Positions 1,519-23,089 of a stretch of DNA of 23,089 bases are shown piece by piece. The DNA is taken from the IMG/VR virus record IMGVR_UViG_3300034096_000864, positions 1 to 23,089 of that record, one strand, 5' to 3'. The stretch's first letter is position 1. The number at the start of each line of letters is the position of its first letter. The translations under genes and the position numbers were made by a program. Origin of the DNA: a virus. The notes beneath the pieces were generated by a model that worked only from the letters and a program-made list of their open reading frames with translations, ran no database searches and was not told the origin of the DNA.

Positions 1519-1520
1519 TG

Positions 1521-2693: not shown

Positions 2694-2699
2694 GGCTGG

Positions 2700-3167: not shown

Positions 3168-3171
3168 AGTT

Positions 3172-3462
3172 TTATTCCTCCGAGATTCCCGCCGCAGCCC
3201 GTGCCTCAAGGCACAGTTGTGATCCCGCCACAAACGCGCGGCAGGCGTTTGGTCGGTTGTTGTAAATTGAGCAAGAGACGCCGCATCCGACTTCGCCGGC
3301 CAGCGCCACGCAGCGGTTGTTGGTCGTCTTCATCAAAGGGTAGTCGTCTCTAAGCATCCATTGCGGGATGCCAGCAGCGTCAGATCGGTCTCGTTGTAAG
3401 ACTGGCCAGCTCCACTTGTGACTGCAGCATGCGCCACACCGTTGACAGTCGAATCGCTCCAT
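3172..3462 (-). CDS. YkgJ-type CxxCxxCC cysteine-cluster protein (96 aa)
   Basis: The product opens with FDCQRCGACC (Cys6, Cys9, Cys12, Cys13) and has a second cluster at CGVSCSIYNNRPNACRAF (Cys60, Cys64, Cys74), with Cys51 and Cys84 also available. This is the signature of the YkgJ/UPF0153 family, annotated as putative metal (zinc or iron-sulfur) chelating proteins of unknown biochemical role. The start is set at 3462, just before the conserved cluster. The first 130 bases overlap the 3' end of the upstream PP-loop gene in another frame. The cluster falls inside the overlap, so this frame is under clear protein-level constraint. An upstream ATG at 3540 is possible but less likely. The pairing suggests the two products act together, perhaps with the cluster protein providing a metal or Fe-S centre. 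Confidence 0.85.
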   Translation of the reverse strand: MERFDCQRCGACCSHKWSWPVLQRDRSDAAGIPQWMLRDDYPLMKTTNNRCVALAGEVGCGVSCSIYNNRPNACRAFVAGSQLCLEARAAAGISEE

Positions 3463-5296: not shown

Positions 5297-5307
5297 AATT
5301 TCTCCTC

Positions 5308-5982
5308 TTATTCATACATGACGTTAACCGATCCGGCGTCGAAGGCGTCGGTGCCGTTGACAGTGGTGACGAGCACTTGCGTAAGCGTGTCCGACAGCGT
5401 CTTTACGCCAGCGGTTTGAGACGTGCTTGAAGTGTTGTTGTCTGTCACAATTCCATGCGCGACCCATTTGTTGCCGCCCATTGAGTTTATAATCAAGGCG
5501 CCTGTTCTATTAGACCCTATGGTTCCGTAGCCTAGCGGAAAACCGGTTGTGAACGGACTTGTCCCGCTGACGGTTGGGCTGGCGGATTCTGTGGTCTGTA
5601 TCACGCTTGAGACGTAGCCTGTCGCTTCAACGCCTCCAGCATCCCCTAGCTGAACTTGCACTCTGGTTGTGCCATTCGTGCTTACGCCGTCGAACATGAC
5701 AGTGATTCGCTTCACCCATGACGGAATGCTTGAGAACGTAAAGCTGGTGCCGCTTGTGGTAGCTTGCGCGGTGCGCAGAGTGAGCGGCTGAGAAAGTTTT
5801 GCGGGTGTAACGTTGGCGTCCAAAATCTTTGCCGTGGTCACGCTGTCTGCCGAAAGATCGGCGGCCACGATGGTCCCGGCCGTCAGCGCCACGGTGGACT
5901 GCGCAAGATCATTAAGTTTCGCCGGGGTAACAGTCTCGCCAGAGATGAAAGTTTTGATCGGAGTGATAGTCAGGGTTGCCAT
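5308..5982 (-). CDS. Fibre-like tail/adsorption protein (224 aa)
   Basis: The N-terminal 65 residues contain repeats of the kind VTPAKL/VTTAKIL (VTPAKLND, SVTTAKILD, NVTPAKLS), a motif that recurs in trimeric phage tail fibres. The remainder is Ser/Thr/Gly-rich and predicted beta, resembling a small C-terminal sandwich or knob domain. There is no clear Shine-Dalgarno sequence at the ATG at 5982, which lies six bases after the stop of the large tail protein, so translation may be coupled. It is probably a short fibre or receptor-binding accessory. No enzymatic (depolymerase) motif is visible. Confidence 0.7.
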   Translation of the reverse strand: MATLTITPIKTFISGETVTPAKLNDLAQSTVALTAGTIVAADLSADSVTTAKILDANVTPAKLSQPLTLRTAQATTSGTSFTFSSIPSWVKRITVMFDGVSTNGTTRVQVQLGDAGGVEATGYVSSVIQTTESASPTVSGTSPFTTGFPLGYGTIGSNRTGALIINSMGGNKWVAHGIVTDNNTSSTSQTAGVKTLSDTLTQVLVTTVNGTDAFDAGSVNVMYE

Positions 5983-5988
5983 AGTGTT

Positions 5989-8016
5989 TTAAGATGAATG
6001 TCGTGTTTCTGTTTGCGGCAGGCTTGCCATAGCGGCTTCAACCGAGACGTTGCGAATCTCGACGCCCGTTCCGGGGGCGCCCGTCACCGCGTCTCCGGTC
6101 GCCATCTCCATTTCGATGTAGTGCGCCTTTTTCCGAATCGGATTTTTCAGCGTGTAATCTTCAGATAGTCCGCTGGTGTTGGTTTGCCCCGGCACCAAAA
6201 CAATCTCTTGGTCTGGGTTAAAAGTGTTGGCCTGCACGGAGATTTTCGCGGTGGCCGGGATGACCACATCGGCCAGCGAGCGAACGAAACGCTTGTTGTG
6301 CATGGTTCCCATGCCGTAACGCCGCGTAACAATGCGCCCCGGCACGCTCGACACGGTCGGCACAGAGGCATCGACATTCTCGTCGCCCGCTTCGACTTCG
6401 TTGAGCAGCATCAGCTTGCCGGCGCGGTTGCTAATCATCAGCCGGCGCTCGTTGGCCACATTGCTGACCAAGAAATCCCCGATGCCAAAGCCATAAATGT
6501 CCTGAGTCTCCCATTGCTCGTTGAGCTGATTGTAGATGAAGACGCCGTCCAGCGTGTCGCCGCCGGCCATCGGGACGGCGAGGTAGTAGCGGTTGTCGTG
6601 GTAGACAGCCACAGACTCCTCAATGAGGTTGGCGTTGAGCGTTTGAAGCTGGTTAGCAATCGGGTCGGAAAGCGGCAACGTCTGCCCGCGCAACTTGAGG
6701 TCAAGTTTGGCGTCAAGCCGGTAGACGCCGCTGTCAGAAAGAAAGTAAATAAATTGCCCCGCCGTGGCGATTGTCCGACGCGCCGCGCAGCCAATTTCAT
6801 CGGTCAGCAAATCCAACCGGCTGACCGGAGTGTCGATGCTGAAGTCAGTGCCGTCCGTGCTGGCAAACTGATTGATCTGCGCCAACCACACCGACTTGCG
6901 GCAGAAGACCAAGAAGCTGTTGTCCACCCAAGGATGCACCGCAACGACTAGGTCGTTGCCGCCCTTGCCTACGCGGAAGCTGGACCAAAAGGGATCGTAG
7001 AGGTCTGGGTCAAGAACGTCCGAGATCATCACGTTCTGGCGGCCGTCAGGGATGATGAGGCGATTGTTGATGTAGCTTGCCCACGGCGTTGACCGCATGC
7101 GCCGGTAGGTCGGACCTTCGGCCGGCACGCCTGCGTCTGCCCGCACAAAGTCGCTGGCGGTCTCACCATCCCAATACAGCGGCGGCTTGACTCGGCGCAC
7201 CTCAATGTCTGCCGCCGCCTCGCTTAACGTCCCGCTCGGCACCGTAATAGTGAAGCGGTCACTGTCAACGATGCTCTCAACGCGGTATTCGTGACCGGCA
7301 AAGGCCGCGACCGATCCGCCCTCAATGCGCACCGTGGCGCCCGTCAGATAACCGTGGGACGCCACATGCACCGTGGCCGTGGTGCCGCTTACGGCGATGC
7401 CTTCGGCCGTTGTGAAGCTAGTGCCCCATCCCGGCTGATTCCGGTCGGCCTCGCGCAGCAGATAGAGTCGGTCGTAGGCTTGCACCATGCTGACCGCGTC
7501 AGTCGGCTCAATGGTCTCGTCGGGAGAAGACGGGTAGGAAAGTGTTGGCGGAAGCACGATCACGAACAGCTCGTCGCCCAAGTCAGTCACCAAAGAGTCT
7601 GCGTCGCTCGCGCCTAGCACGGCGCCGGCGCCGGCCGCCGATACGCTGAGGGCGCTGTCAGTAATGTAGGTGTAGGCTGCGTCAGGTCCAGCCAGCACCA
7701 CCGCTTCTGTCGCAATGCTCTCTTCCTGCATCAGCATGACCGCCGAGGCAAAGATGCCGCCGCTGTAGACCGCTCGGACGACAGGTTCATTCGGCGCGGG
7801 CTTTAGGTCGAAGTCCAAGCATAACGGCGTGCCGCTCACGCTGATGTCGCTGGCCAGCCGCTTGGCGCCCTTGCGCGTCACGGCTACGCCACGGTCCAAC
7901 CGCATGTTCTGCGAGAGCTGGAGCATTCCAGCGGGCAGGGAAACAGGATTGATCCGCGAGGCATAGCCCGCGAATCCCATGTCGCCGTCGCGGATGACTT
8001 GGTCAGAGAGAGGCAT
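5989..8016 (-). CDS. Large beta-rich tail (nozzle/stabilisation-type) protein (675 aa)
   Basis: The N-terminus (GFAGYASRINPVSLPAGMLQ, then LSQNMRLDRGVAVTRKGAKRL) is the recurring opening of a phage tail protein family found in podoviruses and some siphoviruses. In that family a Gln/Asn/Arg-rich segment precedes a large beta-propeller-like body. Later motifs such as YHDNRYYLAVP and GVFIYNQLNEQWETQDIYG look like propeller blades. Its length is right for a tail nozzle (T7 gp12-like) or tail stabilisation protein. It is flanked by a head-fibre-like gene upstream and a fibre-like gene downstream with 3-6 base gaps, within one operon. The family match is by eye. The exact structural position (nozzle or hub) is inferred. 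Confidence 0.8.
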   Translation of the reverse strand: MPLSDQVIRDGDMGFAGYASRINPVSLPAGMLQLSQNMRLDRGVAVTRKGAKRLASDISVSGTPLCLDFDLKPAPNEPVVRAVYSGGIFASAVMLMQEESIATEAVVLAGPDAAYTYITDSALSVSAAGAGAVLGASDADSLVTDLGDELFVIVLPPTLSYPSSPDETIEPTDAVSMVQAYDRLYLLREADRNQPGWGTSFTTAEGIAVSGTTATVHVASHGYLTGATVRIEGGSVAAFAGHEYRVESIVDSDRFTITVPSGTLSEAAADIEVRRVKPPLYWDGETASDFVRADAGVPAEGPTYRRMRSTPWASYINNRLIIPDGRQNVMISDVLDPDLYDPFWSSFRVGKGGNDLVVAVHPWVDNSFLVFCRKSVWLAQINQFASTDGTDFSIDTPVSRLDLLTDEIGCAARRTIATAGQFIYFLSDSGVYRLDAKLDLKLRGQTLPLSDPIANQLQTLNANLIEESVAVYHDNRYYLAVPMAGGDTLDGVFIYNQLNEQWETQDIYGFGIGDFLVSNVANERRLMISNRAGKLMLLNEVEAGDENVDASVPTVSSVPGRIVTRRYGMGTMHNKRFVRSLADVVIPATAKISVQANTFNPDQEIVLVPGQTNTSGLSEDYTLKNPIRKKAHYIEMEMATGDAVTGAPGTGVEIRNVSVEAAMASLPQTETRHSS

Positions 8017-8019
8017 ATA

Positions 8020-8757
8020 TTAGGCAGCAACAGCCTTAATTACCGCAAAGTTGATGTCGGGAGTGTCAGACGCCGTGCCCCCGGTTGTGCGGAAGGTGAT
8101 CTCAAAACCGCCAGATGACACGGTCGTCACGTCTAGCAGGTACCTGTTCGTGCCAGCGCGCTGGTTGACAATGACGCAGTCGTTGGGGCCGACCGTGCTG
8201 TTGTTGACTGAGAAATTCGCCGCTGTTGCCGATCCCGCCGCCGTGAACATCGTGATGCTGCCGCACGTTTTGTTGATGGTCACAGGTGTGGTCCGACTGG
8301 TGGCCTGCGTCACCGTGCCGCCTGCACCAGTGGCATAGCCAACGCCAGACGAGCCGCTGCTGGTCACCGCTCCAGTGCTGGCCATTGAGGCAACGCTCGT
8401 TGCACCAGCGGACACGGCGCCGCACGTCAGGGCGCCGCCTGTCAGATTTAGCGGAGTGTTGCCCGCGCCTGATGCAATGAGTCCGACCTCCTGTAAGCTG
8501 TCGAGCAGGTCCGCTGTCACCGCCGGCTGATCGACCGGGGTGGCGTTCCAGAAGCCGAGGAGCTGGTTGGCGTCAGTTCCGATTCGCGTGCCAGTGCTGC
8601 TGCTGAGTGCGTTGTTTTTCTGCGCCCGCAAGCAGTCGCCCTTGAGTTGGCCGGCAGTGACCTTCTTGGTCACGCCGCTGTCGTCAATAACGAGATTGTC
8701 GCTGTCGTCCGGGGTGGCGCCGAGCGCGGTCAGTTGGTCGATTGTTTTGGTTGCCAT
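8020..8757 (-). CDS. Head-fibre/tail-fibre-like structural protein (245 aa)
   Basis: The N-terminus (TKTIDQLTALGATPDDSDNL) is a common virion attachment segment. The C-terminal half, starting GYATGAGGTVTQATSRTT and ending in INFAVIKAVAA, is a widely shared phage beta-sandwich domain found in head-fibre and tail-fibre proteins. The middle is Ser/Gly/Ala-rich, as in fibre shafts. It lies directly downstream of the L,D-transpeptidase-like lysin and three bases before the large tail protein. It probably decorates the virion surface or helps adsorption. The C-terminal domain match is fairly sure; whether it sits on the head or tail is not. Confidence 0.75.
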   Translation of the reverse strand: MATKTIDQLTALGATPDDSDNLVIDDSGVTKKVTAGQLKGDCLRAQKNNALSSSTGTRIGTDANQLLGFWNATPVDQPAVTADLLDSLQEVGLIASGAGNTPLNLTGGALTCGAVSAGATSVASMASTGAVTSSGSSGVGYATGAGGTVTQATSRTTPVTINKTCGSITMFTAAGSATAANFSVNNSTVGPNDCVIVNQRAGTNRYLLDVTTVSSGGFEITFRTTGGTASDTPDINFAVIKAVAA

Positions 8758-8762
8758 AAGAT

Positions 8763-9308
8763 TTAATCGTTGTTGACTAGAACGTAGCTGAGAGTTTTGG
8801 CGTTGTTGCGTTTGAGTTCGGACTCAGTGAGGGCGATGAAGGCGTCCCACTGTTGAGGCGGGATCGTCTGGCAGCCCTCCGAGCTGGTTGTCGTGCGGCC
8901 GCCTTTGTGAATGTTAATGGCGAAGTGTCCGGTCTCTTCCTTGTCGCCACGCATGACCGTCACTGGACCAGCCTGCACTAACGCCTTGTAGGGATTGCCG
9001 CGACTGATGCCGTGCTGCCCTATTTTGTAGCGATAGACACCGGCCTTGAGCTGGGCCATGGGCTTGCGGGCGTTGGCGTTCCAGCCGAGGCGGGACGGAT
9101 CAACGTTGGCGTTCCAAGCAACGTGCGCGTTGGGCGAAACAAGGATGATAGCATCATCATACAAGCCAACGTCATTGCCCTTGGCGCCCATCGTGTTGCT
9201 GTAGTAGCCACGAATGCCGACCAAGCACACCGGATCGCTGACACCAGCGGACTTTAACTGCCGCTCGGTGTCTTGCCGTTGCTGCTGTGGCCGGTCTTTT
9301 GGAATCAT
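8763..9308 (-). CDS. L,D-transpeptidase-like putative endolysin (181 aa)
   Basis: Residues 129-148 read FAINIHKGGRTTTSSEGCQT. This contains the His...Ser-x-Gly-Cys arrangement of the L,D-transpeptidase (YkuD) fold, with His134 and Cys146 as likely catalytic residues. The spacing is a little shorter than in cellular enzymes and Glu replaces the usual His before Gly. No signal peptide is seen, so export would need a holin. The ATG overlaps the stop of the hydrophobic upstream gene (ATGA), placing it in the lysis block. It probably cleaves or rearranges peptidoglycan cross-links as the lysin. No muramidase or amidase is visible in the window. A virion-associated role is also possible. Confidence 0.75.
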   Translation of the reverse strand: MIPKDRPQQQRQDTERQLKSAGVSDPVCLVGIRGYYSNTMGAKGNDVGLYDDAIILVSPNAHVAWNANVDPSRLGWNANARKPMAQLKAGVYRYKIGQHGISRGNPYKALVQAGPVTVMRGDKEETGHFAINIHKGGRTTTSSEGCQTIPPQQWDAFIALTESELKRNNAKTLSYVLVNND

Positions 9309-9652
9309 CGCGTCTTCAGTTCAGCACCGGCCAGATCAACGGTCTTGGGGCCAACAAAGCCGTCCACCGCGAGCTGGGTGCTCTGGCTGTAGGCATTGAG
9401 CATCTTTTGTAGCTGTGTGCCGTAGTCTTTAAGTATGTTCGCTGGTAGCTTGGTCACAGCGATGTCAATGACCGCCCAGATAATCCCGGCGAGGACGGCT
9501 TCATTCAGGCCGAGGGCCGCGACATTAAGGCCCAGCTTTTGCGAGACGTAGGTAATTGCCGCTGCGGCCAGCGCCGTGACGGCTTTTTGGACGATGGGGC
9601 CGCCGCGACTAAGCAGCAGTTTGACTAATTGTTTTTCGATAAAAGATTTCAT
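9305..9652 (-). CDS. Hydrophobic lysis-block protein with peptidoglycan-binding-like C-terminus (115 aa)
   Basis: The ATG at 9652 overlaps the stop of the lipoprotein gene (ATGA). A longer in-frame ORF reads back through the lipoprotein gene and is a shadow. Residues about 20-70 hold hydrophobic helices (VTALAAAAITYVSQKL, VLAGIIWAVIDIAV). The C-terminus (LQKMLNAYS, then LAVDGFVGPKTVD) resembles the second half of a PG_binding_1 repeat, where VDGxxGPKT is typical. A membrane segment joined to a wall-binding tail would suit a holin or a spanin-like partner of the lysin, whose start it overlaps. The role is inferred. Confidence 0.7.
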   Translation of the reverse strand: MKSFIEKQLVKLLLSRGGPIVQKAVTALAAAAITYVSQKLGLNVAALGLNEAVLAGIIWAVIDIAVTKLPANILKDYGTQLQKMLNAYSQSTQLAVDGFVGPKTVDLAGAELKTR

Positions 9653-9846
9653 TCGGGTTTTCTCCATTCCTTGTAGCTGTCGATTAGATTGCCCACGTTC
9701 GGGACGTAAGTGACCATGACTTTGATGCTGCCCCAGTCGCCCGGTTCCGCGCTGGCCGTCTTGACCGGCGGCAGCGGTATGCTCACGCAGCCACCAAGCA
9801 ACAGCGTGGCGGCCAGCGTAAGCGCAAAACTCGGGCGGCACGTCAT
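9649..9846 (-). CDS. Small lipoprotein in lysis block (65 aa), possible o-spanin
   Basis: The N-terminus is a textbook lipoprotein signal: positively charged start, hydrophobic core (FALTLAATLLLG) and lipobox LLGGC with the modified Cys at residue 19. The mature peptide is about 46 residues with a Pro-rich start (VSIPLPPVK). That matches Rz1-type outer-membrane spanin subunits in size and composition and implies a Gram-negative host. The ATG overlaps the stop of the 57-aa membrane protein (TAATG) and the stop overlaps the next start (ATGA), so the block is translationally coupled. Signal and lipobox are seen directly. The spanin role is inferred; no partner with an obvious Rz architecture was found. 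Confidence 0.8.
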   Translation of the reverse strand: MTCRPSFALTLAATLLLGGCVSIPLPPVKTASAEPGDWGSIKVMVTYVPNVGNLIDSYKEWRKPE

Positions 9847-10019
9847 TAGAGGCGGGCGTTGTTGTCCTTGGCCTGCACCAAGCCCCAGCCGGCAAGGATC
9901 GAAGTGACGATCAGCCCTAGGTCAGGCAGTGCGTCAGTGGCGAGGTATTCTTTGGCGCCGGTGGCGACGGCAATGATGATCGTCAGCACGCCGATGGTCG
10001 TAGTTTTCCAGTTACGCAT
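9846..10019 (-). CDS. Small two-helix membrane protein, holin candidate (57 aa)
   Basis: The ATG at 10019 gives MRNWKTTTIGVLTIIIAVATG. The longer frame upstream is Arg/Ser-rich and shadow-like. There are two hydrophobic segments, about residues 7-22 and 31-47, joined by a short polar loop. The protein ends in a charged tail (AKDNNARL). The WKTT...G start and KD end are common in small phage holin-like proteins. It lies one base after the stop of another membrane peptide and overlaps the lipoprotein start. It is probably a holin; its 66-aa neighbour could be a second holin or an antiholin. Confidence 0.7.
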   Translation of the reverse strand: MRNWKTTTIGVLTIIIAVATGAKEYLATDALPDLGLIVTSILAGWGLVQAKDNNARL

Positions 10020-10020
10020 A

Positions 10021-10221
10021 TTATTTTTGCTTCTTCTTTTTGAGGTCGTGAAGGACCGAAAGTAATGTGACAACGCCGACCGCGAGGCCGACACAAAGAC
10101 CGGCGACTCGGAGGTAGACCTCAAGCTGCGAGACCATAGAGACGGCCGCCGAGCCGAGGCTGGCAAATGTCCCCAGCACTCCGCGCTCAACCGTGCTCAT
10201 GTGGCTATGCAGCAGGCTCAT
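10021..10221 (-). CDS. Small membrane protein, second holin/antiholin candidate (66 aa)
   Basis: The peptide has an amphipathic N-terminus, a moderately hydrophobic stretch (LGTFASLGSAAVSMV) near residue 20, a strong transmembrane helix (VAGLCVGLAVGVVTLL, about residues 40-56) and a basic tail (KKKKQK). Starts are possible at 10221 (MSLLHSH) and 10200 (MSTVERG), seven codons apart. A dual start of this kind is known from holin/antiholin genes, though here it is only a possibility. It opens the lysis block and precedes the 57-aa membrane protein by one base. Confidence 0.65.
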   Translation of the reverse strand: MSLLHSHMSTVERGVLGTFASLGSAAVSMVSQLEVYLRVAGLCVGLAVGVVTLLSVLHDLKKKKQK

Positions 10222-10223
10222 GG

Positions 10224-10481
10224 CTATTTGCGGTAGGCAATGACTGTGCCCGAGTGCAGCTTGATCGCACTGAAGAAGCCGTCGATGGTCGTGCCAGCCT
10301 TGATCGTGTGCGCGGAGCCTGACGAGGCATTGGCAGCTCCCGTGAGGTTGCCGGTGAGGACTTCAAACTTAGTGTCGGTCATCACGTCGATAGAGACGAA
10401 GTCGGCGCTGACTTGGGTTGTGTCGGCGATGCTGACGGCGCCGGACGTGCGGTTCGTGATGCGTGAATTAGGGAATCCCAT
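10224..10481 (-). CDS. Small putative structural protein (85 aa)
   Basis: The peptide is Ser/Thr/Gly-rich and probably all beta. It starts MGFPNSRITNRTSG and ends in FFSAIKLHSGTVIAYRK. Short beta proteins of this style are common between podovirus adaptor and lysis genes and are thought to be minor virion or fibre-associated components. It follows the head-tail adaptor gene by 12 bases and precedes the first lysis-block gene by two. I do not recognise a named family. Confidence 0.6.
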   Translation of the reverse strand: MGFPNSRITNRTSGAVSIADTTQVSADFVSIDVMTDTKFEVLTGNLTGAANASSGSAHTIKAGTTIDGFFSAIKLHSGTVIAYRK

Positions 10482-10493
10482 AGTGTTGGTTAG

Positions 10494-11111
10494 TTAGTAT
10501 TGGTTGACGCGAGCCGTCCATGTGGATGGCTGGCCCTGCTGGAAATAGTATTTGTCGCGCTGGGAGATCAGCTCGGACTCTGCGAGCTGTTCCATGGCGA
10601 GTGCTTTGTCGGTCTGTCCGTCCTCTTGGAGCAAATCTGCACTCAGCATCAGGCCGACTGCTTTTGCGATGACGCTAGGAACTGTCGCGGAGAGGTTGCT
10701 CGCGCTGTATTCGGTCGGGCGGATGCGGAAGTTGACGTAGACGGTGGTCGGCAGGTCGGTGCTTTGCGGGAAACGGACGTTGTCGCCAAGGAGCGTGTAG
10801 CCGATGGCGCGGGGTGAAACGTGTGTCGCGGGGTTGTCGCGGAGGACACCAAACACTTCGCCCATGGCGGTCTGGCCGCTCTGCTCGTAGGGAATGAAGT
10901 AGCCGGTCGTGTCGTTGCCCTCGACGGTGCGTTCCTCGACGCGCATAAGCTCTGGCCAGTCAGCCCACTCCCAGCAGTCGCTGATGCGCTCGTTGGCGGC
11001 GGCGACCATCATGGTGCGGGCGCCGGAAGGGATGGCGTCGATGGTGGACGCATCGTTGCCGACACGCTGCCATGCGCGGAGCAAGATAGATTGGAGAGTT
11101 ACTGTGCGCAT
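10494..11111 (-). CDS. Head-to-tail adaptor (tail tubular A-like) protein (205 aa)
   Basis: The N-terminus (TLQSILLRAWQRVGND, followed by RTMMVAAANERISDCWEWAD) matches phage connector proteins in which helices packed under the portal are followed by a beta domain. VTFPQST-like beta segments and a helical C-terminal half (SVIAKAVGLMLSADLLQEDG, then AMEQLAESELISQRDKYY) complete the usual T7 gp11-like pattern. At 205 residues it is of typical adaptor size. The start overlaps the stop of the 145-aa gene (TAATG). In podoviruses this protein seals the portal and carries the nozzle, matching the 675-aa tail protein downstream. Recognition is by pattern, moderately sure. Confidence 0.7.
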   Translation of the reverse strand: MRTVTLQSILLRAWQRVGNDASTIDAIPSGARTMMVAAANERISDCWEWADWPELMRVEERTVEGNDTTGYFIPYEQSGQTAMGEVFGVLRDNPATHVSPRAIGYTLLGDNVRFPQSTDLPTTVYVNFRIRPTEYSASNLSATVPSVIAKAVGLMLSADLLQEDGQTDKALAMEQLAESELISQRDKYYFQQGQPSTWTARVNQY

Positions 11112-11548
11112 TAGCTGTTGAGTGCGTTCATGGCCGACTGCACGGCGGCTTCAAAGGTGACGCTGGGATTCGGCCACGATGCTTGCGGCGCCGGATTGGC
11201 GGCGAACATGGTGAGGATTGTTTGCAAGTAGGCTTCGACGGCGTCCAGCTCGGCGCAGGTTTTGCCTGCGGCGGCGAGGGACTGGCGCAGATACAAAAGC
11301 GTAGGCTGGCGGTTGCCGCCGAGGCCGACTGCATCGAGGTGTTCTTCGGCGGTGACGCTGGGCGGCGGCGTGGCGATAAGCGTGCGGCTGGCGGCGTCCC
11401 AGATAAGAGTGCCGTTTTGCAAGCCTTCGCCTTGCGCGTCAGTGAGCGGGAGCGCGGTGATGCCTGCGGGGAGCGGATCGGCGATGACGGTGCCGATGCT
11501 GACGCTTTGGCCGCTTTCGGTGTTATAGAGGAGGTGCCAGTTGTTCAT
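11111..11548 (-). CDS. Hypothetical protein, tail-fibre-assembly-like N-terminus (145 aa)
   Basis: The first 60 residues (NNWHLLYNTESGQSVSIGTV, then ADPLPAG and LIWDAASRTLIA) resemble the N-terminal beta domain seen in some tail-fibre assembly or accessory proteins. The C-terminal half is helical and Ala/Gln-rich, with LRQSLAAAG and AVQSAMNALNS. It lies between a duplicated-domain structural protein (two-base gap) and the head-tail adaptor (overlapping TAATG). Function unknown; an accessory or chaperone role in fibre assembly is a guess from resemblance. Confidence 0.6.
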   Translation of the reverse strand: MNNWHLLYNTESGQSVSIGTVIADPLPAGITALPLTDAQGEGLQNGTLIWDAASRTLIATPPPSVTAEEHLDAVGLGGNRQPTLLYLRQSLAAAGKTCAELDAVEAYLQTILTMFAANPAPQASWPNPSVTFEAAVQSAMNALNS

Positions 11549-11550
11549 GG

Positions 11551-12396
11551 TCAGACTTTCGGAACGGCGATGATGCAGGCGTCGTATTTGCTGGGGTTCG
11601 CCCCGATGTTGTGGCGGATGGCGAGGCGGCTGCCGGTGGGGATTTCTCGGCCGAAGGTGTTGAGGCGCAGGGCTGGCACGCTGAAGTTTTCAGTGGCGCC
11701 GAAGGCGAAGTTCAATTCGCCAAAACGGACTTCGCTGCCAGCGGCGCCGACGCCGATCTCGTAGACGGCATCGCCTTGCGAGGCGGTGTCGGTGTCGCTG
11801 GCGGACGGGGCGATAACGAAGGCGGTGTAAGGTTGGCTGGTGCTGCTGACGATCTGGACCCAAGTGCCCGATGCGCCGCTCATGGCGGTGCCGGTGCTGG
11901 TGGCGGTGTCAATGCCGAGAACATCCACAGTGGTCGGGATGAGGGCGGCGTCGGTGGCGTTGAGGCACTGAAACTCGCGCACACCAAGGGTTGCGGTCTG
12001 CGAGGCTCGGACGCCTTGGACGCGGGCAGCGATGCGGCTTCCTGATGCGATTTTGACGGGGATACGAAACGTCATGCTGGAACATCCGCCGACAGCGATG
12101 TTCGGCACGATGACTGTCTCGCTGCCAGCGGCACCAACGCCGATGTCGAGCAGGGTGGCGCTGTCGGCGGTGGAGACGTTGACGCTACTAACGGCGAAAT
12201 TTAGCATCGTGGTCTGCGCGCTGGTGGAGGCGATGACCTGCGACCATGAGCCTTTGGTGTGCGGCGTGGCCGAGGCGGTGAGCGTGACGCCGCTGGTGTT
12301 GTAGCCTGCGTTGGTGAACTCGTTGCCGTAGAACCACGGCTTGTCCGCGAAGAGCGGCGTGGCACCGAGGTAGGCTTTTTGCAGGCTCAAGGACAT
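11551..12396 (-). CDS. Structural protein with internal tandem domain duplication (281 aa)
   Basis: Two related beta-rich domains are visible. Residues about 49-127 begin GSWSQVIAST and end SGSRIAARVQ; residues about 177-264 begin GTWVQIVSST and end TGSRLAIRHN. Both contain the identical IGVGAAGSE (85-93 and 214-222) in the same relative place. A short N-terminal segment (LQKAYLGATPLFADKPWFYG) may anchor it to the virion. Such repeats suit a fibre or decoration protein. It lies three bases after the 178-aa protein, within the structural operon. I do not recognise a named family. Confidence 0.7.
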   Translation of the reverse strand: MSLSLQKAYLGATPLFADKPWFYGNEFTNAGYNTSGVTLTASATPHTKGSWSQVIASTSAQTTMLNFAVSSVNVSTADSATLLDIGVGAAGSETVIVPNIAVGGCSSMTFRIPVKIASGSRIAARVQGVRASQTATLGVREFQCLNATDAALIPTTVDVLGIDTATSTGTAMSGASGTWVQIVSSTSQPYTAFVIAPSASDTDTASQGDAVYEIGVGAAGSEVRFGELNFAFGATENFSVPALRLNTFGREIPTGSRLAIRHNIGANPSKYDACIIAVPKV

Positions 12397-12399
12397 GGC

Positions 12400-12936
12400 T
12401 TACGAGGGGTCGGTGATGAGGTAGAGGGTGGTGGCGTCGGGGCTGCCGATGGCGGCGTATTCGGCGGTGGTGAGGCTGACGATGTTTGTGACTACGTCGC
12501 TGCCGCTGCCTGCGGAGGTGTCGCTGACTACGTTGACGCCGGAGCGGTCGGCGGCCGTGAGCGTGCGGGTCGTGCCGGTGGTGATGCCGGAGAGTTGGAA
12601 CTTTAGATTCTTGGTGGCGTCTCCGTCGTCGTAGATAAGGAACGAGCTGTCGCTCATCACGTCGAAGAAGGACGTGTCGGTGAGCTGGTAGTCGTTGTCG
12701 CGGGAGGCGCCGACGATGGCTTTGCGCACATAGACGCCAGCCTGTTTGTAGGACGAAAAGGGCCACGTTCCGGAATTCGACCGGACCAGCCAGCGGCTAT
12801 CCAGCGCGGCCGTGCCGTCGAGCGGGAGATCCGCATAGGTTGCCACTTCGCCTGCGAAGAAGGCAGATCCGCCGCCGCCTCCACCGGAGCCGGTGAAGTC
12901 GAAGTTGCCTGTCAGCGGATTGAACTTAATGGCCAT
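12400..12936 (-). CDS. Fibre-associated structural protein with Gly-rich linker (178 aa)
   Basis: The N-terminus MAIKFNPLTGNFDFTG followed by SGGGGGGS is a recurrent virion-anchor peptide with a flexible linker. The C-terminus contains the LTTAEYAAIGSPDATTLYLI motif, a common end module in phage fibre and minor structural proteins (LTxAEYxAL...TLYLITD). The middle is beta-rich. The start overlaps the stop of the 69-aa gene (TAATG). It is likely a fibre or capsid-surface component. The motifs are well known but do not settle which. Confidence 0.65.
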   Translation of the reverse strand: MAIKFNPLTGNFDFTGSGGGGGGSAFFAGEVATYADLPLDGTAALDSRWLVRSNSGTWPFSSYKQAGVYVRKAIVGASRDNDYQLTDTSFFDVMSDSSFLIYDDGDATKNLKFQLSGITTGTTRTLTAADRSGVNVVSDTSAGSGSDVVTNIVSLTTAEYAAIGSPDATTLYLITDPS

Positions 12937-13145
12937 TAGCTGCGGGTCACTGTGGCGATCTTGGCGTCATCCGAGGACGGCGTGCCGCCGACATAAGTGA
13001 ATGTCAATGTGGCGACTGTCTGGCTGCCTTCTTTGTAGACTACCGTGGAAAGATTGTTTGTCGTGGAGACGTAATTCAGCTCAACCGCGTTGTGCTGCGG
13101 GATGTTTAGTCCGGCGATGTTTCTGACTGAGACGTTGGGATGCAT
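12936..13145 (-). CDS. Small beta-rich structural protein (69 aa)
   Basis: The peptide contains PQHNAVELNYVSTTNN followed by TVVYKEG and TVATLTFTYVGG. This pattern (PQHDxxxLTY...VxYKxGG...VATLTxTY) recurs in short phage proteins encoded beside portal and fibre genes. It starts 28 bases after the portal stop, with TTAGAGAG as a possible ribosome site, and overlaps the next start. It is probably a minor virion component. The family has no assigned function that I know of. Confidence 0.6.
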   Translation of the reverse strand: MHPNVSVRNIAGLNIPQHNAVELNYVSTTNNLSTVVYKEGSQTVATLTFTYVGGTPSSDDAKIATVTRS

Positions 13146-13173
13146 GGGCTAAACTCTCTAATTTCGCTATAAA

Positions 13174-15282
13174 TTAGGCGGCGGGTTGGGCGGTCATGCC
13201 GAGTTGCTGGTCTTGGGCCATCTTTTGGAGCGCGGGTTGCGCGCCGGTGCGGCCGATGACGGCGTTTTGCTGTTGTTGCAACTGGAATTGGAAAGCCTGT
13301 GCGCGGGCGTCGATCATCTTGCGGAAGATTTCGTCCTGCTGGTAGCGCTGCTGGACGGCGGGGTTGGACTGAATGATTTGCTGCAAGGTTTGCAGGCGGA
13401 CTTGGGCGTTTTGTCCGCCTTCTTTAAGCGGCGGCTCGGTGCCTGCGGCGATTTTGGCGAAGGCGGTTTGTTCGTCTTCTTGCTCGGCCTGGGTAGCGGC
13501 GCCGATGTCCTTGATGAGGATGCCGGCGAGATTTGGGTCTACTGCCTGCATCATATATTGGACCAAGCCAACTCGATCGATAACGCCGAAGCTGTCCAAG
13601 GGAACCAAGACTTTGGCGAGGTAGTCTAATTTGGCGCCGAGGGCTTCGGAGTCGAGCAACCGGGCGTCGAACTCGCAGGTCACATCGAAGCGGCCGCGGA
13701 TGTCGGCGGGGCTGGCAGTGAGCGGGAGATTGGGGTTGCCGGTGACGCGGGCGACTTCTTCCGCGGTCATATACTGCTGACAAAGAGCGAGCGTCTGGAC
13801 GAGGCAGAGCTTCATATCGAGGAGCCACGAATCGACCAACTCCTGGGTGTGCAGCATGTAGCGTTGCGGCGGGACGGCTTCGCTGATGCGGCCGAAGTAG
13901 TTGTCCACATCGTTGCGGATGGACATCTCGACTTCGATGCTGCCGGCGTCGGGCTGCGGCGGGTTCATCCAAGTGATCTCGCCGGGGCGGCGCTCGGGGA
14001 TCTGCACGCCCGGTCCCATGATGAGGTCCATCTTGCCGCGCGCGGCGGGGGTTTTGAGCGGGGGCAAGGTGACAATGCTGGCGCGGTCGCCTCGCATGTC
14101 GCGTTGGATTTTGACTTCTTCCTGGGCGGTCTGGACGATCTCCGGCACGCCGCGGGACTCCAAGATGGGGCGTGAGGCGCGTTCGCGGGGCAGCTCGACG
14201 AAGGGATAGAGCGCGTGGGCGTAGGGCAGGATGTCGTGGACGGCGGTGCGGTCGGGAACGTGGTAGCTGAGGACGGTGCGGGTGACGCGCATCGCTTTGG
14301 TGCGGTCGTCGTGTTCCTTGCGGTAGACGTGCCAGATCTCGATCATGTCGCGCTGGTGGTCGTAGAGGAACTGGTCGCTGCGGTGGAGGTTCAGCGAGAT
14401 GCGGCGAATGTCGCCTTTCTTCTCCACGACTTGCTCAACCCATTTGTCGTCCCAGCCCTCGACAGCGGCACGCTCGCGCAACTCCGGTTCGGTCATTAGC
14501 TCGCGTCGGGCAACGAACGCGGCACGCTGTAACGAGTAGGTCTGGGCGGGGAAGATGATGTCTTCCCATGGCTCAAGCGCGGTCCACTGGGGCCGGCTTT
14601 CAAAAACGTAGGGCTGCTCCCATTCGACGAAGCCGCGTTCGCGGAACTGTCGGACTTTGGCGGTGCTGCCGAGTTCCGGGATGACTTCGCCCATGAGCTG
14701 CGCGGCGAGTTCTTCCTGCTCGGGGTCGAGGACGACCTCGAGGAGGGCTTGCAGGTTGGGGTCTTGGGACTCCTGCAGCATGGCCATGGCGCCTTCCATG
14801 GAGAATGACTTGATCTCGGTGCGGGTGGTCTTGATCCAATCGACGGCCATGACGGCCAAGCCGTAGGTCTCGCGGAAGTTGGCGGCGAGCTGCACTTCGC
14901 GCCGGAGGTCATCCAAGACGTGCTGGAAGAGGAGCCACTTGAGGACGGACTCCGCGGCGCTGCGCTTGTCGATGTCCATGGACTCGACGGGCTGGACCTG
15001 GACGCGCGCCTTGAAGAAGGCGTTGGTGAGCATGGCAACGTGGTCGCGGACGATGGTGTCGGCCATGCGCACGCGCGAATCGAGGGACTTGTCCCATGGG
15101 AATGGGCGCTTGCCGAGGGCTTCTTGGTGTTTGCGGCCGTCGTCGGTCTGGCCGGCCCAGATGCAGAAGCGGGTGTTCCAGTTGCGGAGCTTGCGCTGGA
15201 CGTAGCCGCTGCCATCGGCGTCGGCCTCATCGATGTCCGAGAGGATCTCGGAGATTTTATCGCGGTCAGGTGCTTTGATCAT
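13174..15282 (-). CDS. Portal protein (702 aa)
   Basis: The length, an acidic helix-rich N-terminus (DRDKISEILSDIDEADADGS), a conserved-looking core with PWDKSLDSRVRMADTIVRDH and LTNAFFKARVQVQP, and a Gln-rich helical C-terminus (AFQFQLQQQQ) fit large podovirus-type portal proteins (dodecameric DNA entry/exit channel at the capsid vertex). The C-terminal helices would form the barrel. The ATG directly abuts the stop of the 111-aa gene (TAA|ATG). It lies downstream of the scaffold and major capsid genes rather than between terminase and scaffold, which is unusual. The portal call rests on overall pattern and the absence of any other candidate. Confidence 0.8.
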   Translation of the reverse strand: MIKAPDRDKISEILSDIDEADADGSGYVQRKLRNWNTRFCIWAGQTDDGRKHQEALGKRPFPWDKSLDSRVRMADTIVRDHVAMLTNAFFKARVQVQPVESMDIDKRSAAESVLKWLLFQHVLDDLRREVQLAANFRETYGLAVMAVDWIKTTRTEIKSFSMEGAMAMLQESQDPNLQALLEVVLDPEQEELAAQLMGEVIPELGSTAKVRQFRERGFVEWEQPYVFESRPQWTALEPWEDIIFPAQTYSLQRAAFVARRELMTEPELRERAAVEGWDDKWVEQVVEKKGDIRRISLNLHRSDQFLYDHQRDMIEIWHVYRKEHDDRTKAMRVTRTVLSYHVPDRTAVHDILPYAHALYPFVELPRERASRPILESRGVPEIVQTAQEEVKIQRDMRGDRASIVTLPPLKTPAARGKMDLIMGPGVQIPERRPGEITWMNPPQPDAGSIEVEMSIRNDVDNYFGRISEAVPPQRYMLHTQELVDSWLLDMKLCLVQTLALCQQYMTAEEVARVTGNPNLPLTASPADIRGRFDVTCEFDARLLDSEALGAKLDYLAKVLVPLDSFGVIDRVGLVQYMMQAVDPNLAGILIKDIGAATQAEQEDEQTAFAKIAAGTEPPLKEGGQNAQVRLQTLQQIIQSNPAVQQRYQQDEIFRKMIDARAQAFQFQLQQQQNAVIGRTGAQPALQKMAQDQQLGMTAQPAA

Positions 15283-19364: not shown

Positions 19365-19567
19365 TTCGCGGCTCCGAAGATTTGCGAGAAGATGTCGGCG
19401 CCGGCAGATTTTGGCATTGACCGAGCAATGTTGTAGCCGTGGTTCCACGCCTTGTCGTAGACCGCATCAAAAAACTTGCGCATGCTCTTGGTGGTGAAGT
19501 GTGGATCTTTTAGCAGGCGCGGGTTTTTGCGCGTCAGCTCACTCCAGAAATAATCTTTGTCGCTCAT
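19361..19567 (-). CDS. Hypothetical protein after terL (68 aa)
   Basis: The ATG at 19567 shares a base with the terminase stop (TGATG). The longer frame upstream is a shadow of terL. The product (MSDKDYFWSELTRKNPRLLK, then FFDAVYDKAWNHGYNIARSM) is short, basic and helical. The stop overlaps the start of the zinc-ribbon gene. Tight coupling to terL suggests a packaging or virion accessory. Family not recognised. Confidence 0.65.
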   Translation of the reverse strand: MSDKDYFWSELTRKNPRLLKDPHFTTKSMRKFFDAVYDKAWNHGYNIARSMPKSAGADIFSQIFGAAK

Positions 19568-21189
19568 CAGTAGCTGCCTCCTCCGTGGCTGCGCAGGATG
19601 TCGCCCTCGACGTTGATGGCGTCGGAAAGGCAAACGTAACGAATTAAATCTACAAAGTCCTTGTTTGCTGAACGCTTGCCGTCCGCACCCGTATACGTCT
19701 GGATGCAGTGAATGACGTTCTTGCAGTTTTCGCTGATGTAGAGCTTGGGCTGGTTGCGCGCGTCCACCGGCTTCTCAGGGTTGTATGACAGCGCATCGTT
19801 GATCATGCTGACGCCTTCATCGATGCTGTCGCCCGGTGTCGCCGTGAAGAGCATGCCGAGATCGGCCATTTCGTCGATGAGGGTCGTTGGGGATTCCTTG
19901 CCGAGCGTGCGGGCGTTGCCGTAGCGGCTGTCCATCCAGCGCTCAAAGATCTCCTCACCGCCTTCGACGCGCAGAATCTCGTCTTTGTAGCGCTCAAGGC
20001 CAAAGCCGAAGTCCTGCTGCGCGGGTCCGGGCTTGCCGTCGAGCTTCTTGCCATCCGGCAGCGCCCACTCGCCGGCATAACCAATGCCCTCGATGTAGGA
20101 CGTTTGGTCGGGCCACTCGCGGTAGACGACAATGCGGCCAGATGTGTCATGCACTGTCCAGATCATGGCCCAGTTCTTGCCAGACGCTGGATCGACCCAG
20201 TGGTAGCGGGTGCCTTGCGGGACATCCGAGGCGCGGATGACGTGGACCTTGGGATTGAACAAAGGGAACCGGCCGCTGATGGCTTTGGTCGGGACACCGT
20301 AAGCGCGGCAGAGGATTTTTTCTTTGGTCTCGCTCTGCAACTCCTTTTTCATCCGCGACCAGCCGGCCCAGGGATTGCTTTGGGTGTGGAAGTAAAGGAT
20401 CGGGCGACCTTTCGGATTGATCTGCTCGATGGGCACTTTGTCGTAGCCGGAGATCTCGCCTTTGTCGTTTTTGAGCGGGAGCAGCTCGGCGTCCGTATCG
20501 GTGATGGTCTTGGCGCCGCTTAGGTAGTCGGCGACCGTAGGACTCCAGCCTTCGACCGGCGTGAAGGTCACGGCCAACTTGCCGTTGCGGTCAACCAACC
20601 GGAAGCGGAGGGTTTCGAGGACATCAAGGGGCACCAGCTCGTCTGCCCAAGCGAAATCGATCTCGCCGCCCTCGAGCGTGGACGGATCTTGCGCGTAGTT
20701 GCGGAAAATGCAGATCGATTGGTTCGGTGCAACGAATTTTGCCTCGGTGAATCCGCCTTTGACGCTGTAGGTGATGTTCGTGACTTGGCCTTTGCGCGCG
20801 TTCCTCCACTCCGGCGGCATGTATTTCCAAATTCTGGGTTGCTGCAGCTCAATGGAGTTGGGCGCAGTAGTTTGAAAGCACCAGACAACTGCTCCGGGCT
20901 TGGAATACATGGTCTTGATGACCTCCTTGGCCGCCCATTCGGTCTTGCCGCTGCGGTTTCCGCCCATGACGAGGATCTCGCGGTGCTTTTCCAGCAATTC
21001 GGACGCGCGCTTCCAGACCGGCGGGATGTAGCCATAGCGGAATGGGTCTGATGCCTCGCGCGCGATCAGTTCTTCGCGTGTTTTGAGATACTTCCAGCCT
21101 TCGTCCGGTCCCAGTTTCTCGAGCAAGTCGAGATCGACCTGCATGACAGGGTGCAGCGTGGGCTTGAAGCGTTGTGCGTGCTCGTTCAC
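19567..21189 (-). CDS. terL: Terminase large subunit (540 aa)
   Basis: The ATPase has Walker A GGNRSGKT (residues 76-83), a Walker B-like IDFAWADE (177-184) and a coupling-like TFTP (208-211). The RNase H-type nuclease has WVDPASGKNW (Asp333), a second acidic site near WMDSRYGN (Asp420) and KDFVDLIRY (Asp511/Asp514). This is the full ATPase-nuclease layout that cuts and pumps DNA into the prohead through the portal. The start is GTG, sharing a base with the stop of the DpdA-like gene (TAGTG), so translation is coupled to the DNA-modification genes. No small terminase was identified in the window. Confidence 0.93.
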   Translation of the reverse strand: MNEHAQRFKPTLHPVMQVDLDLLEKLGPDEGWKYLKTREELIAREASDPFRYGYIPPVWKRASELLEKHREILVMGGNRSGKTEWAAKEVIKTMYSKPGAVVWCFQTTAPNSIELQQPRIWKYMPPEWRNARKGQVTNITYSVKGGFTEAKFVAPNQSICIFRNYAQDPSTLEGGEIDFAWADELVPLDVLETLRFRLVDRNGKLAVTFTPVEGWSPTVADYLSGAKTITDTDAELLPLKNDKGEISGYDKVPIEQINPKGRPILYFHTQSNPWAGWSRMKKELQSETKEKILCRAYGVPTKAISGRFPLFNPKVHVIRASDVPQGTRYHWVDPASGKNWAMIWTVHDTSGRIVVYREWPDQTSYIEGIGYAGEWALPDGKKLDGKPGPAQQDFGFGLERYKDEILRVEGGEEIFERWMDSRYGNARTLGKESPTTLIDEMADLGMLFTATPGDSIDEGVSMINDALSYNPEKPVDARNQPKLYISENCKNVIHCIQTYTGADGKRSANKDFVDLIRYVCLSDAINVEGDILRSHGGGSY

Positions 21190-21836
21190 TAAGCGGCAAT
21201 CGCCTCCATGACCATTTGCATGGGCTTATCGTTGCGCGTAGACAGCCTCAAATACCTGCGCAGTCCCTCAATCTGCTCTTGGTCGCCGCGCATCCAGCCG
21301 GTGCCGTCACAGGATTCCACGCCATGCTCGTGGCACTGCCAAAGGCGGCGCTCGGTATTGACGCGGCCGACATGGACGCGCTTCCAATGCTTTGCCCAAA
21401 CCCCAAGCGTAGACCACTTCCAGTCGGTTGATCCTCCGACAAAAATGACTTCAGCGTCGGTCGGCACATCGTGAGGCTCCATGCCATCTTGGACGACAAA
21501 AGCCAGCGGCACATGGGGCGCGGCGGCGCGAATGCGGGCTGACCATTCTGGCCACAGCGCTTTTGTTGCCTCCTTGTCAGCAACCACGTCTGGAGCCGCA
21601 ATCCACCTCGGGCGCTGATGTCCGCGTGCTCTGTCGATAAGTTCAAGAAAAGCGCCTTCGTCCCATCGCTTGTTATTTTTCCAAGCAGTGAATGCTCCGT
21701 TGTCCAAGGCGTATGGCAGCCAGCTCGGCGGTCGGCGCCATCCACCCGGGCTAATGAGCCATCCGATTCTGCCCTCGTGCTTTCCGGCCAAGTAGCCGAT
21801 TTCGATGCCCGAGTTATTGGATGGCATTACCAGCAT
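21189..21836 (-). CDS. DpdA/TGT-like 7-deazaguanine transglycosylase, compact (215 aa)
   Basis: Motifs fit the tRNA-guanine transglycosylase superfamily (TIM barrel): LDNGAF at residues 44-49, APDVVAD at 81-87, VVQDG near 114-118, FVGGS at 132-136 and HVGRVN at 155-160. Phage DpdA paralogues of TGT exchange guanine in DNA for a 7-deazaguanine such as preQ0. At 215 residues it is far shorter than bacterial TGT and lacks the CxCxxC...H zinc site; only Cys168 and Cys176 remain. I chose the ATG at 21836. TTG at 21842 and ATG at 21827 are alternatives. It overlaps the end of queC by 23 bases and shares a base with the terL start. Adjacency to queC and queD strongly supports the DNA-modification role. 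Confidence 0.75.
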   Translation of the reverse strand: MLVMPSNNSGIEIGYLAGKHEGRIGWLISPGGWRRPPSWLPYALDNGAFTAWKNNKRWDEGAFLELIDRARGHQRPRWIAAPDVVADKEATKALWPEWSARIRAAAPHVPLAFVVQDGMEPHDVPTDAEVIFVGGSTDWKWSTLGVWAKHWKRVHVGRVNTERRLWQCHEHGVESCDGTGWMRGDQEQIEGLRRYLRLSTRNDKPMQMVMEAIAA

Positions 21837-22428
21837 CGGCAATCGCTTTCAGTCTGACTTGGCACGCCCCGCATTGACCGCACGGCTCGTCGCCGCCCGC
21901 GTAGCATGACCACGTTTCTTCCAGCGGCACGTTTAGCCGCCATGCAATATCGACCACCTTGGCCTTGGTGCGCACAATGTACGGAACGTGAACCTCCATG
22001 CGCCGCGTGTGGCAGCACCGCAGGGCAAAATTGAGGTGCTTTATAAAGTCGGCGCGGCAATCGGGATAAACCTCGGCATCGTCGCCATTCACCGCGCAGG
22101 AAACCGCCGTGCATCCGTGCGAGAGCGCATAGCTTGCCGCCATAGCTATCAGCACCATGTTGCGGTTTGGCACTACGGTTGGTTTCCCGACCAGCGGTTC
22201 GGTTCCTGTGGTCAGCGCCGACCGCTCAAATAGCTGCGGCGGCAGGGTAATTTTGTCGTAAGCCACGCCCAGCTTGGCGCAAGTCGCCTCGGCAAACGTC
22301 AATTCTTTGATGTGCCTCTGCCCATAGTCGTAGAGCAGGCAATGGGCTTTGTGGCCTTGATGCAGAAGGTCGTAAAGCAGGGTGGTGCTATCCAGCCCGC
22401 CCGACATGAGATGAGTGAATTTAGCCAT
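21814..22428 (-). CDS. queC: 7-cyano-7-deazaguanine (preQ0) synthase QueC (204 aa)
   Basis: QueC converts 7-carboxy-7-deazaguanine to preQ0 using ATP and ammonia. The PP-loop SGGLDST is at residues 9-15, VPNRNM at 86-91, DAEVYPDCRADFI at 117-129, and the zinc cysteines at 175, 183, 186 and 189 (SCYAGGDEPCGQCGACQ). All signature residues are present and the length is slightly short of cellular enzymes. The start lies one base after the queD stop, and the end overlaps the DpdA-like gene, indicating one coupled unit. Confidence 0.95.
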   Translation of the reverse strand: MAKFTHLMSGGLDSTTLLYDLLHQGHKAHCLLYDYGQRHIKELTFAEATCAKLGVAYDKITLPPQLFERSALTTGTEPLVGKPTVVPNRNMVLIAMAASYALSHGCTAVSCAVNGDDAEVYPDCRADFIKHLNFALRCCHTRRMEVHVPYIVRTKAKVVDIAWRLNVPLEETWSCYAGGDEPCGQCGACQVRLKAIADAGNAIQ

Positions 22429-22429
22429 A

Positions 22430-22783
22430 TCAGTTCTTGGTCAGAATCACGTTTGAGGTTGGCGTTTCGCGGACTTCGACGCGGGAAAGCAGCGGCAATC
22501 GCGGCTGCAATTCGCGCCAAAGCCACGCAGCAAGGTTTTCGGCAGTGGTCGCGCATGGTAGGATGTCGTTGAGGTTGCGGTGATCAAGGGACGCCACGAT
22601 CGGTTTCACCACGGCGCTGATGTCCGCGTAGTCCTGCACCCACTCGCCGTCGATTGGGCCGGATACGCCAATCAGCACTTCGTAGCTATGTCCGTGCAGG
22701 CGATGGCATTGATGGTCTGCCGGGAGATGTGGCAGCGAGTGCGCGGCCTCAAAGCGGTAGGTTTTAGTAATTTCGTATTTCAT
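22430..22783 (-). CDS. queD: 6-carboxytetrahydropterin synthase QueD (117 aa)
   Basis: QueD turns 7,8-dihydroneopterin triphosphate into 6-carboxytetrahydropterin, the precursor for QueE. Zinc ligands His15, His30 and His32 (FEAAHSLPH; CHRLHGH), catalytic Cys26, the LDHRNLND motif (66-73) and Glu106 in VRETPTS are all present. The start at 22783 gives the normal N-terminus MKYEITKTYRFEAAHSL; the longer frame upstream is a shadow of the neighbour. There is no clear Shine-Dalgarno sequence; a large inverted repeat lies directly upstream. QueE and GTP cyclohydrolase I are not in the window and may lie further right or come from the host. Confidence 0.95.
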   Translation of the reverse strand: MKYEITKTYRFEAAHSLPHLPADHQCHRLHGHSYEVLIGVSGPIDGEWVQDYADISAVVKPIVASLDHRNLNDILPCATTAENLAAWLWRELQPRLPLLSRVEVRETPTSNVILTKN

Positions 22784-22791
22784 TAAATAGA

Positions 22792-22860
22792 TTGGGCGCT
22801 GGCTGGTTGGCGCTCGGACCCTCCCCAGGGCCGATTTTGTCAAGCCGAGCCAGCGCCCAA
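22792..22860 (-). promoter_or_regulatory. Large structured leader upstream of queD
   Basis: A perfect 13-bp inverted repeat (TTGGGCGCTGGCT at 22792-22804, AGCCAGCGCCCAA at 22848-22860) encloses a smaller hairpin (TCGGACCCT / AGGGCCGA around a CCCC loop). On the mRNA it ends eight bases before the queD ATG and would control access to the start. The outer arm doubles as the last codons of the 69-aa gene. It does not match the preQ1 riboswitch consensus I know. A terminator-like reading (hairpin plus TTTT) exists on the plus strand, where no gene lies. Confidence 0.6.
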
Positions 22861-23049
22861 AATGTCCAAAGTCGGATTCTCCGCAGCAGCGAGCTGGTCG
22901 ATGCGCGCAGTCAGCCACCGGCCGTTGTCTTCGCGGCAGACGGTGACGTAGTCGTTTTCAAGGCCACCCTGCGCGACAACGTAGAGCACGCGGCAGGTGC
23001 CGATGCCGTCTACCTCGACGCGGAAGTTTTGCGGGGGCCAGGAGATCAT
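22840..23049 (-). CDS. Small conserved-looking phage protein upstream of queD (69 aa)
   Basis: The product (NFRVEVDGIGTCRVLYVVAQ, followed by GGLENDYVTVCREDNGRWLT and RIDQLAAAENPTLDI) resembles a short phage protein pattern with QGGLENDxxTV...DGR...FxxxQL. It has no assigned function. An in-frame stop lies upstream of the ATG at 23049, so the gene starts here. The ribosome site is poor. It ends 56 bases before queD, with its stop inside the queD leader structure. Family resemblance is moderate. Confidence 0.6.
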   Translation of the reverse strand: MISWPPQNFRVEVDGIGTCRVLYVVAQGGLENDYVTVCREDNGRWLTARIDQLAAAENPTLDILGAGSA

Positions 23050-23089
23050 ATGAAAAAACGAGACAGGGCCACCGGCATTTCAGTGCCCA

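Follow-up and report, generated by a model that had tools for sequence, protein, structure and literature searches.

The phage DNA analysed here carries a compact unit of three genes, namely queD, queC and a gene for a short protein related to the tRNA-guanine transglycosylase (TGT) and DpdA enzymes, which likely constitutes a minimal mobile 7-deazaguanine DNA-modification cassette. The preQ0 base, generated with assistance from the host, would be inserted into phage DNA as dPreQ0 and/or dADG, thereby countering restriction. The third protein belongs to a large uncharacterised family of phage proteins, and several independent gene partners connect this family with 7-deazaguanine DNA modification.

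Organization of the locus

The window, i.e. the whole stretch of 23,089 nucleotides that was analysed, is one entire IMG/VR record. Its three cassette genes and terL follow closely upon each other (Table 1): queD and queC are separated by a 1-nt gap, queC and the TGT-like gene overlap by 14 nt, and the TAG stop of the latter and the GTG start of terL have one base in common (TAGTG, at 21189). This confirms an earlier reading made from the sequence alone, in which the que genes and a TGT-like gene were described as abutting terL via overlaps or one-base gaps. The same reading placed the TGT-like gene at 21189-21836; the gene itself stands but its start does not, as the ATG chosen lies 9 nt upstream of the start conserved in the family (21827). 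The order queD-queC-tgt-terL is kept in every close relative covering the region (L002-L008), and comparisons of the window with two of these (L006 and L008) yielded a dN/dS of 0.04 for the TGT-like gene, indicating strong purifying selection, as well as values of 0.13-0.15 for queC and queD and 0.09-0.11 for terL.

Table 1. Coordinates of the genes and loci considered in this study
Feature	Location	Strand	Description and support
queD	window, 22783 (ATG) to 22430 (stop)	(-)	6-carboxytetrahydropterin synthase, 117 aa; PF01242 1.6e-29; TIGR03367
queC	window, 21814..22428	(-)	7-cyano-7-deazaguanine (preQ0) synthase, 204 aa; PF06508 9.2e-51; TIGR00364; canonical motifs
Short DpdA-like transglycosylase (predicted)	window, 21189..21827	(-)	212 aa; phrog_15826, hhalign to DpdA, AF2 model, residue conservation
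terL	window, 19567..21189	(-)	large terminase; phrog_2 4.8e-10; neighbour outside the mobile cassette
Mobile three-gene cassette (homology extent)	window, 21198..22786	(-)	blastn and sliding identity, window vs L026-L034
PAPS-reductase-domain protein	window, 3333-4292	(-)	PF01507 4e-7
C5-cytosine DNA methylase	L078, 11879-13066	(-)	PF00145, 3.2e-33
Canonical DpdA and short DpdA-like gene in tandem	L264, 8001-9517		one phage
YhhQ-type transporter (StevieRay gp53)	L012, 4436-4966		PF02592; annotated hypothetical/membrane protein
YhhQ-type transporter (ReqiPine5 gp04)	L013, 4411-4944		PF02592; annotated hypothetical/membrane protein
YhhQ-type transporter (Aoka gp38)	L015, 3092-3619		PF02592; annotated hypothetical/membrane protein
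Burkholderiaceae Sbc/DpdA-like/DndC-like loci	L164, 4232-6553; L168, 4183-5988; L174, 650-2029; others in L163-L189

Identity of QueD and QueC

Judged from their sequences, QueD and QueC are canonical. Both pass the cut-offs of the corresponding NCBIfam equivalog models, with QueD scoring 90.3 bits against TIGR03367 (cut-off 89.25) and QueC 163.8 bits against TIGR00364 (cut-off 150.3). The zinc-binding and catalytic residues of QueD (C, HxH, DH, E) are present in the motifs CHRLHGH, SLDH and RET, and QueC displays SGGLDS, YGQRHIKE, VPNRN, YPDC and CY-x6-CxxCxxC, which together with the equivalog scores bears out the previous statement that the signature residues of the two enzymes are intact. 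All the motifs listed for true preQ0 synthases in a 2026 study, namely SGGxDS, YxQxHxxE, VPxRN, YPDC and C(x)8CxxCxxC (PMC13329287), were found in QueC, with a zinc loop that is one residue shorter (C x7 CxxCxxC). Two other identities considered for this protein were rejected: the QatC model gives 13.9 bits against a cut-off of 280, and the first Cys is followed by Y, as against the CE(x)6CxxCxxC zinc motif of Cap9.

A short subfamily of the TGT/DpdA superfamily

The third protein recovered no Pfam family at E<=10, no TGT match in NCBIfam and no significant match in a sequence search of the PDB. Among the PHROGs it matches phrog_15826 (annotated as "unknown function"; 7e-37) and, over a part of its length, the TGT family phrog_887 (2.6e-6). 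An hhalign comparison between an alignment of 58 relatives from the phrog_15826 family and one of 83 canonical phage DpdAs yielded an E-value of 1.1e-5 and a probability of 82%, with the alignment spanning the length of the protein, while controls with reversed or shuffled templates gave E-values of 0.18-0.65; a comparison with the single E. coli TGT lent no support (probability 0.3%). As the similarity to DpdA is remote, it supports an assignment at the superfamily level rather than membership in a subfamily. The motifs of the short family and DpdA are nevertheless in register along the alignment, in the order DNGAF/DSGAF, PDVVxD/LDGIGD, VGG/LGG, RVHVG/KVHGF and SCDGTGW/SCDSSSW, with H152 and D174 aligning respectively with H196 and D215 of the 9g DpdA. 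D42, D80 and H152 are kept in all 58 family members and Q113 and D174 in 57, and the CxCxxC zinc site of the tRNA TGTs, which is present in the E. coli enzyme, is found in none of the 58.

The AF2 model of the protein is confident (pLDDT 90.1, pTM 0.87) and recovers 15 matches below 1e-3 among viral folds, of which five are named as queuine tRNA-ribosyltransferases of viruses. Its best match among PDB folds is at 1.3e-3, with none passing 1e-3, and these matches are intermixed with generic TIM barrels, a TGT (3blo) and the TGT-family Cap10 (9ntn) being within the best four. The closest viral fold match (BFVD A0A0F7L9Z1) comes from an uncultured marine virus and, at 499 aa, has over twice the length of the present protein, which suggests that the short enzyme also exists in a fused form.

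Taken together, the profile alignment, the model and its fold matches, the conserved residues and the absence of the zinc motif place this predicted enzyme in the TGT/DpdA superfamily, as a member of a short, distinct subfamily that is neither tRNA TGT nor DpdA2. An identity as a tRNA TGT was rejected on account of the missing PF01702 match and zinc site, and one as a DpdA2 of the nt-1 type on account of the universal presence of the His196 equivalent. The sequence-only reading had called the gene TGT-like, and the profile comparison places its product inside the superfamily; the accompanying dpdA-like label holds at that level but not in the sense of a 9g-type DpdA, the short phrog_15826 subfamily having been missed. 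Among the matches listed (40 of 236 records) in a tblastn search with the 9g DpdA, the sole carrier of a short-family gene was Vibrio R29Z, which was matched at its canonical DpdA. In 2023, Cui et al. reportedly described additional types of DpdA together with new phage deazaguanines, and the short subfamily may already have a name in that work.

Phyletic and contextual diversity of the short family

A profile scan of the short family recovered at least 551 viral loci, of which the best 80 were kept, and 53 bacterial loci. The recurrent partner of the family is queD, not terL: queD occurs in 22 of the 34 non-redundant viral members (within 1.5 kb in 21 and within 60 bp in 13), queC in 10 and a nearby canonical DpdA in one, and Pfam confirms the PTPS (QueD) and QueC calls in the sampled loci. 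YhhQ-type (PF02592) transporters lie beside or near the family gene in actinobacteria, Chloroflexia and Saccharibacteria, and in mycobacteriophage, Rhodococcus phage and Arthrobacter phage members (StevieRay, ReqiPine5, Aoka), with further instances in L193, L196 and L198-L200. This neighbour suggests that a 7-deazaguanine precursor is imported in cases where the host is unable to synthesise it. YhhQ homologues have been reported from some phages, uncorrelated with any group (Hutinet et al., PMC6884629).

In Burkholderiaceae a DndC-like gene is directly downstream of the family gene in 24 loci, and its product in the one locus scanned matches the PADLOC DndC model at 5.8e-41. This neighbourhood, which combines an SbcD-like phosphoesterase, an upstream SbcC-like ATPase, the short DpdA-like enzyme and the DndC/PAPS-reductase-like protein, resembles a DNA-modification or defence system that has yet to be described. 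We tentatively consider a broader possibility, namely that phrog_15826 represents a distinct and widespread group of short 7-deazaguanine transglycosylases, operating with partial pathways (queD by itself, queD and queC, or a YhhQ-type importer) and, in Burkholderiaceae, with an SbcC-like ATPase and a DndC-like protein, and using a base or step unlike that of canonical DpdA. If this were true, modified guanine would be present in hundreds of phages that are currently not regarded as modified.

Mobility of the cassette

In a second set of phages (group B; L026-L031 and L034), queD is 93-97%, queC 92-98% and the TGT-like protein 66-69% identical to those of the window. DNA homology sets in at the start of queD and extends through the TGT-like gene up to its end. 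Identity drops from ~95% to ~60% at the border between queC and the TGT-like gene, and the flanks are unrelated (blastn and sliding identity, L026-L034). The queD-queC-tgt cassette is mobile and travels as a single 1.59-kb unit.

Genome context and the predicted pathway

Over positions 1-14222 and 20983-23089 of the window, a second record (G002) shows 99.99% and 99.95% identity, respectively, and the two records close a circle of about 41.5 kb. Neither record has a radical SAM (QueE), FolE, QueF, ArcS-domain or YhhQ gene, under searches that matched control genomes, and QueE, FolE, QueF, the ArcS domain and YhhQ are likewise missing across eight or nine relatives. There is also no second DpdA, as phrog_887 matched the TGT-like gene alone on each contig. 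The lack of QueF and ArcS noted earlier for the window extends to the whole closed genome, and the genome-wide search for queE, folE and queF proposed along with it found none, just as QueE and FolE had been found missing from the window. The same genome also codes for DnaB, an integrase, a C5-cytosine methylase and a PAPS-reductase-like protein, and its nearest terL from an isolate is that of Phage C75C1 (34% identical). The PAPS-reductase-like gene is situated among virion genes and its product has weak DndC similarity. Given the C5-cytosine methylase, two types of modification may be present in the DNA of this phage.

As QueE and FolE are absent, preQ0 would be made by the phage only with the FolE and QueE of the host, CDG being host-supplied. 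We infer a scheme that covers what the enzymes do, DNA as the target, the base made and the protection it gives. Host FolE would yield dihydroneopterin triphosphate, and phage QueD would turn this into CPH4, increasing the flux through the first committed step; CDG would then be formed by host QueE, and phage QueC would convert it to preQ0 via ADG. The short DpdA-subfamily transglycosylase would exchange guanine in phage DNA for preQ0, with D174 as the predicted nucleophile, equivalent to D280 of TGT and D215 of the 9g DpdA. Virion DNA with dPreQ0 and/or dADG at some guanines would resist host restriction enzymes. Through such a route the cassette probably swaps some guanines of phage DNA for a 7-deazaguanine base, evading host restriction. 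With neither QueF nor ArcS present, it is reasonable to expect dPreQ0 or the corresponding amide, dADG; the initial expectation of dPreQ0 is thus supported, with dADG admitted as well. For phages without amidotransferases dPreQ0 or dADG has been predicted (PMC6884629), and MED16, in which dpdA is the lone gene of this kind, carries dADG (PMC8306585).

The capacity for modification would accordingly spread with a three-gene unit of 1.6 kb, the host providing the remaining steps of the pathway. On this basis, DNA modification is predicted for many uncultured phages and for some in culture, such as the mycobacteriophage StevieRay, in which the transporter gene adjoins the enzyme gene, and the cultured relatives make the prediction directly testable.

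Alternative interpretations

The short enzyme might act in the deazaguanine pathway at another step, by inserting a different base (CDG, ADG or DG), recognizing other sites, or removing or editing bases. In Sonali (gp81, alongside the canonical gp87), phiG7, Vibrio R29Z, L264 and L123 it occurs together with a canonical DpdA (the loci holding both being L011, L014, L016, L264 and L123), and from this co-occurrence it may perform a different step. Many family members also have queD but no queC nearby, and the short family has a TGT-like VQDG at the position of the CFH of DpdA. Against this, it is the sole TGT-like gene at most loci, with 33 of the 34 viral representatives having no canonical DpdA nearby, and the present cassette includes a canonical QueC, whose product is preQ0. 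We regard this alternative as unlikely.

That the cassette instead boosts queuosine in host tRNA as an aid to translation, with the TGT-like enzyme acting on tRNA, appears improbable. Such boosting has been proposed where phages have Que genes and lack DpdA (Hutinet 2019, PMC6884629), but the present protein is about half the length of TGT, belongs to a family devoid of the CxCxxC zinc site, has no match to the Pfam TGT family and aligns best with DpdA, and QueF is absent.

According to the sequence-only reading, translation couples the pathway to packaging. In such an arrangement the modification enzyme and the terminase would be co-translated, timing modification to packaging, and the TAGTG junction with GGAGG upstream is indeed preserved in 6 of the 6 relatives of the window's own group (group A) that cover it. 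Overlapping starts are common in phages. The group B cassette has the identical end point and then passes into unrelated DNA without terL downstream (L026-L034), and terL adjoins the short dpdA-like gene in just one of the 34 non-redundant viral members. Since the cassette recurs with unrelated flanks and without such a terL, the coupling is local to one phage group; it was rejected as a feature of the system, the position beside the packaging gene being a local accident, and a functional junction is very improbable.

Finally, it is extremely improbable that proteins are the substrates of QueC and the TGT-like enzyme, as with the type IV CBASS pair Cap9/Cap10 (deazaguanylation), or that the two counter that defence, for although Cap10, a remodelled tRNA-transglycosylase-family enzyme (PMC11996544), is among the best PDB fold matches, the cassette has QueD and no CD-NTase, its QueC is neither Cap9-like nor QatC-like in the above comparisons, and the catalytic Asp is conserved.

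Comparison with known systems

The preferred reading, a cassette for 7-deazaguanine modification of phage DNA, is in line with the DpdA systems of phages such as 9g and CAjan (Hutinet et al. 2019, PMC6884629), which likewise combine queD and queC with an inserter of the TGT superfamily. The conserved His (H196 in 9g) and catalytic Asp are in register with the 9g DpdA, and the lack of an amidotransferase is shared with the group of CAjan and Rosebush, for which preQ0/ADG is predicted (PMC6884629). Unlike the 9g and CAjan systems, the putative inserter is ~100 aa shorter and only remotely similar, folE and queE are absent, and the genes form a 1.6-kb mobile three-gene unit. The DpdA2 of Vibrio phage nt-1 is comparable as a divergent TGT-superfamily inserter accompanied by preQ0 genes; it lacks the conserved His (PMC6884629), in contrast to the short family. 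With the bacterial and archaeal TGTs (PF01702) the enzyme shares the order of active-site motifs (D, PD, Q, GG, D) and the barrel fold, but differs in having no zinc site, no Pfam match and a length of ~212 as against 375 aa. Described counterparts also include the short actinophage proteins annotated as "DpdA-like tRNA-guanine transglycosylase" (StevieRay gp54, Sonali gp81, Aoka gp40 and ReqiPine5 gp03), which also belong to the phrog_15826 family and show 28-38% identity to the present protein with the same invariant residues. These differ in having no adjoining queD-queC pair, several of them instead being beside or near a YhhQ-type transporter.
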